Assembly (NCBI GenBank): GCA_022571575.1 | Contig: JACZXN010000066.1 | Coordinates: 1-7,708 of the forward strand | Source of the DNA: Chloroflexota bacterium | GTDB lineage: Bacteria; Chloroflexota; Dehalococcoidia; UBA3495 | DNA length: 7,708 nt | Direction of reading: 5' to 3' | Shown here: positions 705 through 2,657 of the stretch, one piece after another | Numbering within the stretch: the first letter of the stretch is position 1 | How the letters are laid out: each line of letters opens with the position of its first letter | Notes under the pieces: model-generated | What the model was told of the DNA's origin: nothing | What the model saw: only the letters and a program-made list of their open reading frames with translations | The model's database searches: none | Position numbers and translations under genes: made by a program

Positions 705-1544
705 TCACAGGCCCAGCAGCCTAGCCGCGTTTCCGGATAGCAGGGCAGCTTCCACATCGGGGGCGAGCCCGGCGTTCCGGGCCTGCTCCAGAGGGCGGGA
801 GATCTCCATCAAGGGGTAGTCGCTGGCAAAAAGCACCTTCCCGGCCCAGGCCAGTTCGGCCACGGTGGCGAACACCTGGGGCCGGTAGAGAAAGGGCGAC
901 GCCGCCGAATCGAAGTACACGTTCTTCAGCGATTCCAGGACCTCGGGCATCAGCGAGTAGAAGGGGAGGCCGCCGCCCCAATGGGCGCAGATAATCAGGT
1001 TACCGGGAAAGTTCTGGATGAACCGGTATAATTTTTCGGGGGTCGTGCTCCCCTTGCCGGGGTATCGGTGGCCGACCGGCTCCGACGAGTGGACCAATAC
1101 CGGAAGACCGTTTGAGCGGGCCAGTTCCATGACTGGTGCCATGACCGCCACGCTGGTGATGTCGAACCCCTGAGTGTCCGCGTGGAACTCGCCGATGCCC
1201 GCCAGCCCGGCGTCCAGACACCGCTGGGCCTCCGCCACCGCCGGCTCCCCCCAGGCTGGGTTCACCGAGCAGAACCCGGTTAGGCGGCCGGGATTGTCTC
1301 CCACCGCCTCGATGATGTAGTCGTTGGCTTGGGCGGCTATCTCAGGGTCCGTCCACCCCAGGCCCATGACCACCGCACGCTCCACGCCGGCGCGGTCCAT
1401 GGCATCCAGCAGGTCTCCGGCCGAGGCGATGCGGGCGTCCGGGCTGGACAACAGCACCGCGAAGGTGGCGTCACGCCCGGCGATCTCCGCCCGGCGGCCG
1501 GCGAAAGAAGGCGGGAGGATGTGGCAGTGAGCGTCTATTACCAA
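705..1544 (-). CDS. Amidohydrolase family (Amidohydro_2, TIM-barrel metal-dependent hydrolase)
   Basis: The predicted protein has 279 residues and is an amidohydrolase-2-type TIM barrel. Numbered from the proposed start, the HxH metal motif is in VIDAHCH (H6, H8). A GEFH segment lies near 119-121, the strand-5-type His in VLVHS at H152, the strand-6-type His in ICAHWGG at H188, and the catalytic Asp in LFASDYP at D242. All expected metal and catalytic positions are present, so it should be active. The family includes hydrolases and decarboxylases and the substrate cannot be named. The frame stays open to an ATG at 1640, but that start would lie upstream of the apparent promoter. A TTG at 1544 placed just before VIDAHCH fits the family better, although it lacks a clear Shine-Dalgarno; TTG at 1577 is an alternative. 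Confidence 0.82.
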   Translation of the reverse strand: MVIDAHCHILPPSFAGRRAEIAGRDATFAVLLSSPDARIASAGDLLDAMDRAGVERAVVMGLGWTDPEIAAQANDYIIEAVGDNPGRLTGFCSVNPAWGEPAVAEAQRCLDAGLAGIGEFHADTQGFDITSVAVMAPVMELARSNGLPVLVHSSEPVGHRYPGKGSTTPEKLYRFIQNFPGNLIICAHWGGGLPFYSLMPEVLESLKNVYFDSAASPFLYRPQVFATVAELAWAGKVLFASDYPLMEISRPLEQARNAGLAPDVEAALLSGNAARLLGL

Positions 1545-1603
1545 GGTGAAAACTGTACAATCAATGGTCCGGGGCAAAGGTCCGGTGCGGGCTTGAGACG
1601 ATG

Positions 1604-1612
1604 AGTATAGCA
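1604..1612 (-). promoter_or_regulatory. Extended -10 promoter for the amidohydrolase gene
   Basis: On the minus strand the sequence TGCTATACT matches the extended -10 pattern TGnTATAAT at all but one position. No good -35 is present, which is common for extended -10 promoters. A start site about 7 nt downstream would give a leader of roughly 50 nt before the TTG at 1544. This is a motif match only. Confidence 0.45.
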
Positions 1613-1614
1613 CC

Positions 1615-1629
1615 GGGGGCGACGCCCCC
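1615..1629. repeat. Short perfect GC hairpin in the divergent intergenic region
   Basis: GGGGGC-GAC-GCCCCC forms a perfect 6-bp stem with a 3-nt loop, right beside the amidohydrolase promoter and upstream of the selenoprotein gene. There is no T-tract, so it is not a typical terminator. It could be part of a repeat family or a protein-binding site. In the 1545-1729 gap, no convincing plus-strand promoter for the selenoprotein gene was found: a TTGACT at 1652-1657 lacks a matching -10, and an AT-rich CTTAATTAT at 1712-1720 is the best -10 candidate. Confidence 0.4.
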
Positions 1630-1729
1630 ATCTCCGGCATGGTCGCGAGTCTTGACTTCGTCGGATGTGCAACCGGGCGACCTGGAGCTTCCGCGACATG
1701 AAAATGGCGCTCTTAATTATGAGCAGGGT

Positions 1730-2287
1730 ATGAGCGGCAACCAAAAGGGCGGTGCACCGGTGCTAAAGGGCCGCGCCGCCCCCGACTTCACCCTGCCCAA
1801 GCCCGAGGGCGAGTACCTCTCCCTCCAGGAATTACGGGGCAAGAAGATATTACTGGTCTTCCTGAGGCATTTCGCTTGAGTGCCTTGAAGGGAGCATCTG
1901 TCGCAGTTGCGGCAGCAGTACGCCGAGATTCGGGCCAGGGGCGCCGAAGTGGTGGCCATCTCCTTTGAACCCAGGGACCGGCTGTTCCAACTCACCCGTC
2001 TGCTCCAACTGCCCTTTACCATTCTGTCGGACCCGGAGCGGGACGTTTACACCGCCTACAGCCTGGCCCAGGGCAGGTGGATCAAGATATTCTCGCCCAA
2101 GACGGTCTGGACCTACGTGAAGCATTTCGCCAGAGGGCGGGGTTACGATCACGCCGCCAGCGATTGGAAACAGTTGGGCGGGGACTTTATCATCGGGGAG
2201 GACGGGACGGTGCTATACGAGCACCGGGGGCAGGCGCCCCACGACCGGCCCACGGTGGCCAGCCTGATCGCGGAATTGGACGGCTAG
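1730..2287 (+). CDS. selL: SelL-like selenoprotein: peroxiredoxin-like thioredoxin-fold protein with UxxU active site
   Basis: Reading two in-frame TGA codons as selenocysteine gives an intact 185-residue protein. The N-terminal part has the AhpC/TSA-like entry APDFTLP (17-23) and a strand LLVFLRHF (41-48), followed by the redox motif U50-V-P-U53 and REHLSQLRQQY. Cys homologues have the same context with CxxC (RHFGCxxCREH). The remainder is typical of the Prx-like2/AhpC-TSA family: GAEVVAISFEP (71-81), LPFTILSDPERDVYTAY (94-110) and QLGGDFIIGEDGTVLYEHRG (148-167). The protein is probably a cytosolic thiol/selenol oxidoreductase; no signal peptide is visible. SelL is a known family of this fold with a UxxU diselenide, and this gene fits it. 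Both TGAs fall exactly on the two redox Cys positions, and the frame is otherwise clean to TAG at 2285-2287. The ATG at 1730 has only a weak, very close GCAGGG; the frame is open further upstream. A twice-mutated pseudogene is the main alternative and looks unlikely. Confidence 0.88.
1877..1888 (+). other. Two UGA selenocysteine recoding codons (U50 and U53)
   Basis: TGA at 1877-1879 and TGA at 1886-1888 are in the same frame and separated by GTG-CCT (Val-Pro). They occupy the two positions of the CxxC motif in Cys-containing homologues. Elsewhere in the window TGA is a normal stop (glycosylase, amidohydrolase, small acidic protein, PhnD-like gene), so a genome-wide reassignment of TGA is not indicated. 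Confidence 0.85.
1898..1915 (+). promoter_or_regulatory. Putative bacterial SECIS element
   Basis: CTGTCGC-AGTT-GCGGCAG folds into a 7-bp stem (one G·U pair) with a 4-nt apical loop AGUU. It lies inside the coding sequence, over codons 57-62. Bacterial SECIS elements require a short stem, a small apical loop with a G in its first two positions, and about 16-37 nt between UGA and loop. Here the loop carries G at position 2, and the distance is 16 nt from the second UGA and 25 nt from the first. The top CGCAGUUGCG resembles the GCAGGUCUGC top of the E. coli fdhF element. A single hairpin appears to serve both codons. SelB binding itself is inferred. Confidence 0.75.
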
Positions 2288-2348: not shown

Positions 2349-2657
2349 TCAGTGGTCGCTGCCGTCCTCGCTGAATTCGTTCTCGTCGCTGAAGACCCCA
2401 GTCTCCCTTCCCTGGAAGACATGGACCACGAAATTCCCGCGGTTGATGCCCACGGCGTCGACGATGTCTTCGTCCACGGTGTCGATGATCTGCTGGATGG
2501 TCTCCTGGGTCAGGCTCTCATCGACCGAGATCGCGACGTGGACCATCTCCGGGGTGAAATGGATGTCTACCCGGCCGACCTGCCGGTCCTGTTCCATGAC
2601 CAGGTACGCTTCGGAGTAGGGTGTGCGCACCTCGCGCTCAAAGCTCAAATCAGCCAA
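2349..2657 (-). CDS. Small acidic conserved-looking protein of unknown function
   Basis: This 102-residue protein has no function I can name. It begins ADLSFEREVRTPYSEAYLV and has an alternating hydrophobic pattern (VGRVDIHFT, VHVAISVDESL) suggesting a small alpha/beta fold. A central acidic helix follows (ETIQQIIDTVDEDIVDAV), then a strand (NFVVHVFQGRE) and an acidic tail (SDENEFSEDGSD). There are no cysteines, membrane segments or signal peptide, so it is probably soluble and cytosolic. The start is a TTG, chosen because a strong Shine-Dalgarno lies 8 nt upstream. It follows proA by 75 nt on the same strand and may be transcribed with proBA, although the spacing also allows independent expression. 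Confidence 0.75.
   Translation of the reverse strand: MADLSFEREVRTPYSEAYLVMEQDRQVGRVDIHFTPEMVHVAISVDESLTQETIQQIIDTVDEDIVDAVGINRGNFVVHVFQGRETGVFSDENEFSEDGSDH

Follow-up and report, generated by a model that had tools for sequence, protein, structure and literature searches.

Can one bacterial gene use two in-frame TGA codons for selenocysteine (Sec, U), and can a single selenocysteine insertion sequence (SECIS) direct both? The question is raised by a reading frame on contig JACZXN010000066.1 of a Chloroflexota bacterium, of which we analyzed a stretch of 7,708 nucleotides, here called the window. A sequence-only reading of this DNA had claimed that the frame encodes a SelL-type, peroxiredoxin (Prx)-like enzyme with the two TGAs at the positions of a CxxC motif, that its home is probably a Chloroflexota-like genome, and that annotation would split or shorten the gene. 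Our analyses supported this interpretation overall: the gene very probably encodes a SelL-related protein with a predicted Prx/thioredoxin fold, and both TGAs are likely Sec codons directed by one hairpin within the gene (Table 1).

Translated with TGA as a residue, the frame is interrupted solely at codons 50 and 53 and yields, as claimed, one protein of 185 amino acids (aa) with U50 and U53. The start codon is placed at 1730 by the alignment with relatives and is in that sense a prediction; a second in-frame ATG lies upstream at 1601, and in the list of open reading frames (ORFs) under translation table 11 the gene appears as two, 1601-1879 and 1907-2287 (126 aa). The frame is confirmed as real and not a product of chance by 17 other genomes that share the TGA pair at the two aligned positions and by selection on both sides of it. 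Comparing the window with eight relatives of its own clade, we obtained nonsynonymous rates (dN) of 0.045-0.180 against synonymous rates (dS) of 0.383-1.630 upstream of the TGAs (one upstream dS was not computable) and dN of 0.090-0.169 against dS of 0.458-1.337 downstream. As dN is well below dS on both sides, the two halves are maintained as one protein.

Full-length relatives with 81% identity are found on two named contigs, of a Chloroflexi bacterium and of Dehalococcoidia bacterium NORP26, and two database relatives bear the name SAR202. Judging from these names, which agree with the claimed home, the window probably comes from SAR202-type Dehalococcoidia. Within NORP26's family, 22 of 50 genomes matched at E ≤1e-12, three of them in the N-terminal part only, leaving 19 carriers; when we searched 250 genomes of the order, the identical 19 came back at E ≤1e-22. 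The carriers have the motifs UxxU (15), UxxC (2) and SxxU (1), and one match ends before the motif. Elsewhere in the class, where we searched 393 genomes out of a larger set and fetched loci for the 30 best, two more UxxU genes were found (L012 and L013). The resulting alignment has 50 rows covering the motif, window included: 18 UxxU, 25 UxxC, one UxxS, one SxxU and five CxxC. Loci L019 and L058, whose matches do not cover the motif, were left out, and a partial two-TGA match in genome G268, for which there is no locus, is excluded from the counts. Setting the five CxxC rows aside gives 45 Sec-type rows, of which 27 have a single Sec. The two TGAs fall where the sequence-only reading had put them, at a conserved UxxU whose alternatives in relatives are Cys or Ser at the same codons.

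Some relatives deserve separate mention. The SxxU of L052 (positions 1606-1653), with TCA for Ser first and TGA second, is unique among the 45 rows and could reflect either an error or a genuine variant. Ten rows (L026, L027, L030, L033, L035, L036, L040, L059, L060 and L061) are further Prx-like genes from genomes of the class, each with a UxxC that contains an in-frame TGA, and given these the Dehalococcoidia may be rich in selenoproteins. A database search with another UxxC gene, L014, returned 22 proteins; five were fetched and three of these were longer. One (P0123) is full-length with CxxC, so full-length Cys forms exist in the more distant L014 branch, and another (P0129) is missing the motif stretch. 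In plasmid records, we found distant peroxiredoxin-like relatives only (82 records), all below 60% identity.

The family assignment is clear from profiles. The window protein scored 157.9 bits against the NCBIfam family NF040769, "SelL-related redox protein", above the cut-off of 120; the full-length relatives tested (7/7) passed as well and belong with it, while P0005, a 126-aa database version, fell below at 97.5 bits. Pfam family PF00578 also matched, and near full-length similarity to prostamide/prostaglandin F synthase (Protein Data Bank 9us9, positions 10-170 of 170, E 3.1e-13) is a likeness of profile only, the redox motif aside. Two UGA codons with UxxU spacing at the redox site, which the window shares with 17 other genomes, are a feature of SelL. 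The protein is predicted to share the Prx fold with typical peroxiredoxins (PrxQ, AhpC and AhpE), whose motif is PxxxTxxC, and differs at the residue three before the peroxidatic Cys: this is Thr or Ser in the typical enzymes and Ser in the BCP compared in the PrxQ/BCP and AhpE comparison, whereas in the alignment codon 50, a TGA and predicted Sec, occupies it. In a structure model built with Cys replacing Sec, residue 50 immediately precedes a helix (51-62) and residue 53 lies in the helix's first turn, as in the CxxC of thioredoxin.

The evidence that links the two codons is a hairpin downstream of them. The distance from TGA to the loop G usually ranges from about 16 to 37 bases; here it is 26 after the first TGA and 17 after the second. 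Over the 45 Sec-type rows, 86.0% of stem cells are paired in comparison with 69.9% in shuffles (standard deviation [SD] 1.6; 0/500 reached the observed value), and the covariation of 0.468 exceeds both the shuffles (0.197, SD 0.022; 0/500) and the best of the partners slid along the alignment (0.213). Pairs changed on both sides are less striking, 7 against 5.1 in shuffles (31/500). By form, paired cells number 124/126 in UxxU, 134/175 in UxxC and 15/35 in the five CxxC rows. The hairpin overlaps the sole run of frozen third codon bases: in 18 rows, those of the codons at +21, +24, +27 and +30 are invariant, and elsewhere from -90 to +117 the maximum is 0.94, the TGAs excepted. Its Leu codon is TTG in 18/18 rows, in contrast to 75/386 Leu codons elsewhere in the scanned region (which includes some bases upstream of the gene), although the rows are related by ancestry and so fall far short of 18 independent cases. 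A covarying hairpin at these two distances that overlaps the frozen bases suggests one candidate SECIS for both TGAs, and having one SECIS-type hairpin close enough to serve both codons is a further feature of SelL. Its 7-pair stem and AGUU loop containing a G also agree with the general form of bacterial SECIS elements, a stem-loop just 3' of the UGA whose small apical loop contains a G, given in PMC1088965.

A hairpin model (R1) was built from 25 of the 45 rows, after removal of the window's clade of ten and of L018, L024, L025, L027, L031, L039, L052, L059, L060 and L061. Most of the ten extra rows removed fit the hairpin poorly, so that R1 and the covariation in these 25 rows outside the clade (0.610, against 0.235 for the best slid partners) are favorable selections. 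R1 found the window hairpin at 54.5 bits, a score that also reflects protein-coding conservation and not structure alone, and gave no other window match at E ≤10. On the five CxxC genes it matched the homologous place only in L032 (5.9 bits, E 3.9).

Several observations weigh against reading both TGAs as Sec, and the Sec machinery provides some of them next to its support. Its counts come from related genomes, not from the window's own genome: in the 50 genomes of NORP26's family, tRNA-Sec was over cut-off in 40, SelB in 44, SelA in 43 and SelD in 47, and in the 19 carriers the respective numbers were 12, 15, 12 and 16. Every carrier has at least one of the four and nine have all; seven carriers are without a tRNA-Sec match, and in genomes G431 and G433 SelD alone is over cut-off. 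The tRNA-Sec anticodon was TCA in all six loci tested. In a hand-picked set of 37 genomes of the class, tRNA-Sec was found in 21/23 Sec-form and 10/14 Cys-form genomes and SelA in 17/23 and 9/14, where 9 of the 14 Cys-form genomes were called so only from the absence of internal stops and some contain other TGA-bearing Prx-like matches. As a yes/no discriminator between the forms the machinery failed, and its presence is no proof of use in the SelL-related gene, since most Cys-form genomes also have it. One genome, G002, has two tRNA-Sec genes over cut-off on different contigs (L004 and L005). Most SelD matches over cut-off in the 50-genome family carry one TGA themselves; in the SelD loci L114 and L115 of related genomes it lies in frame within CAGU, the known Sec site of SelD, and SelD is, on its sequence, likely a second selenoprotein in this family.

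The other points on the same side concern the hairpin, the model and one relative. Several distant UxxC rows are unpaired in the hairpin register, folding of the region alone was not clearly better than that of shuffles (z -0.24 and -1.32), and an Rfam scan of the window matched no family. The N-terminal third of the structure model is based on two full-length sequences, and the pLDDT (predicted local distance difference test) scores of the five versions range from 78.0 to 52.0. The reading as Sec is itself a prediction from sequence. Lastly, one UxxU row, L047, carries extra in-frame stops (TAA62, TAG148 and TAG164); the remaining 17 of 18 are free of further stops in codons 14-177. In L047 itself (1645-1692 and downstream), the stops indicate a decaying copy or an assembly fault.

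To place the motif forms in a history, we masked both motif columns and inferred a midpoint-rooted tree from 40 of the 50 rows. The ten further UxxC Prx-like genes named above, which match within residues 5-113 only, were left out of the tree and kept in the 45-row covariation. The window falls in a clade of ten UxxU rows with a support of 100/99. On this tree UxxU changed five times, or a minimum of four times going by the starred branches, and the direction of each change depends on the midpoint root; L055 (TGT) and L056 (TGA), which differ at codon 53, are sisters with a support of 100/100. The second Sec has changed several times within the family tree. U50 appears to be the older, catalytic Sec, and U53 may have been gained or lost by a single base change because the hairpin was already within reach of codon 53. 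We lean toward a wider account, held with less assurance than the identity of the gene: that in SAR202-type Dehalococcoidia codon 53 also lies in range of a hairpin that evolved to serve the first Sec, that the second Sec flips between TGC or TGT and TGA, that the family offers a natural series of UxxU, UxxC, SxxU and UxxS on one SECIS, and that every database copy listed for this marine bacterial redox protein is missing the active site.

The tree also bears on the strongest competing explanation, that only one UGA, most likely the first, is efficiently decoded and the other mostly terminates, giving a truncated or mixed product. The hairpin keeps the same distance to the first TGA in most UxxC genes and may fit codon 50 by origin, and single-Sec forms make up more than half of the Sec-type rows. 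However, codon 53 is TGA in 19 rows across the tree and in every row of the window's clade, L052 has TGA at this codon alone, and dN remains low downstream of the second TGA, all of which makes a single decoded codon quite unlikely.

Two simpler explanations fare worse. If the gene were decaying, or the TGAs were sequencing errors leaving two truncated ORFs, the stops of L047 would fit; yet the same two codons recur in the window and 17 genomes, nearly all without another stop, dN is well below dS on both sides and the third bases of the hairpin are frozen. A pseudogene was rejected on the stop pattern and the dN/dS of both sides, and we see hardly any chance for such an origin. A general reassignment of UGA, for example to Trp, finds an echo in P0127, one of the database proteins related to L014 (UxxC), in which Trp occupies the first Sec site. 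Against this, of the six neighboring window genes checked, four use TGA as their stop, so the codon has kept its general meaning; in all 18 UxxU rows TGA is confined, within codons 14-177, to the two redox sites, and the tRNA-Sec of relatives has anticodon TCA. Reassignment was rejected on the neighboring stops and the in-gene placement and is exceedingly improbable.

With both TGAs read as Sec, SelB with Sec-tRNA would bind the hairpin, and the same hairpin would serve both UGAs as the ribosome advances. Because codon 50 is TGA in 44/45 Sec-type rows, the attacking selenol would be U50. U53 would then resolve, and the resulting diselenide would be re-opened by a cellular reductant. Sec insertion and the diselenide are predictions for the window protein, whose role is likely the reduction of peroxides or disulfides.

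That annotation would cut the gene, as the sequence-only reading expected, is borne out in the protein database. All 120 relatives listed, of 121, begin at query residue 57 or later, past the second TGA. In 101 of these 120 the start is residue 60, and the TTG inside the SECIS hairpin was apparently taken as the start codon, so the redox site is lost. Where shown, the source names of the listed relatives are redoxin, peroxiredoxin or hypothetical protein, none SelL; a eukaryotic SelL name was absent among the best 120 of 272 matches listed, most of which are without any name. P0171, a Dehalococcoidia protein that is full-length but only distantly related, does carry the name SelL-related redox protein.

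The sequence-only reading had also held that the occurrence may be new. Bacterial SelL has its SECIS in the coding region, within reach of both codons. SelL, one of the closest known proteins, goes back to Shchedrina et al. 2007. Fish, invertebrates and marine bacteria are reported to possess SelL with a diselenide (PMC2397514), a single SECIS serves both Sec of SelL (PMC3316567), bacterial Prx-like 2 proteins include several UxxU sequences (PMC2398784), and bacterial Prx-like thiol:disulfide oxidoreductases (PF00578) have UxxC or UxxU (PMC9312934, PMC13188914). SelL resembles the window protein in its UxxU pair, the single SECIS for both, its Prx-like redox nature and its aquatic bacterial holders; the two were likened by features, not by alignment with fish or published bacterial SelL, and differ in that the diselenide is reported there and predicted here, and in the lineage. 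With the UxxC/UxxU proteins of the last three papers, as presented there, the window protein shares the motif class and PF00578. Since both marine bacterial SelL and Prx-like selenoproteins with UxxU have been published, the kind of protein is known and the window gene is a further member. What stands of the novelty is that no paper naming a Chloroflexota SelL was found in the open literature, judged from listings; "Chloroflexi" and "Chloroflexota" are absent from the main texts of PMC9312934, PMC13188914 and PMC2398784. The present analysis adds the lineage, probably SAR202-type Dehalococcoidia, the repeatedly changing second Sec and the shortening of every listed relative. If true, the findings describe a double-Sec redox protein that is conserved in a lineage of uncultured marine bacteria and a comparative case for one bacterial SECIS serving two UGA codons. 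They would also expose a recurrent annotation error, and through the UxxU/UxxC series one could test directly what a second selenium gains and costs.

Table 1. Features of the window, with positions, strands and supporting details
Feature	Position	Strand	Details
SelL-related redox protein gene	1730..2287	+	185 codons + TAG (2285-2287); translation, Pfam, NCBIfam NF040769, relatives
First U of UxxU, a predicted Sec (TGA, codon 50)	1877..1879	+	TGA in 44/45 Sec-type rows, TCA in one (L052)
Second U of UxxU, a predicted Sec (TGA, codon 53)	1886..1888	+	TGA 19, TGC 19, TGT 6, TCG 1 (45 Sec-type rows)
Predicted single SECIS hairpin	1898..1915	+	7-pair stem 1898-1904/1909-1915, loop 1905-1908 AGUU, loop G 1906; covariation, frozen third positions
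TTG within hairpin, start of downstream ORF	1907..1909	+	ORF 1907-2287; 101/120 listed relatives start there
Amidohydrolase (Amidohydro_2), upstream, divergent	705..1640	-	matches in 15/22 loci searched; ends in TGA
102-aa hypothetical protein, downstream, convergent	2349..2657	-	no Pfam match; 64-94% identical copies in 14/22 loci searched

In scans of the window, ARAGORN found no tRNA and PHROGs gave no match, and a promoter scan of 1541-2400 gave no site upstream of the SelL-related gene. The gene stands alone between the divergent amidohydrolase and the convergent hypothetical gene, which is followed by proA and proB; the amidohydrolase and the hypothetical gene also flank it in many relatives. 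In L001, the order is conserved from a uracil-DNA-glycosylase gene to proB, followed by mfd, with the window's intervening PhnD-like gene missing; in L002, it is conserved from the glycosylase to proA and part of proB.
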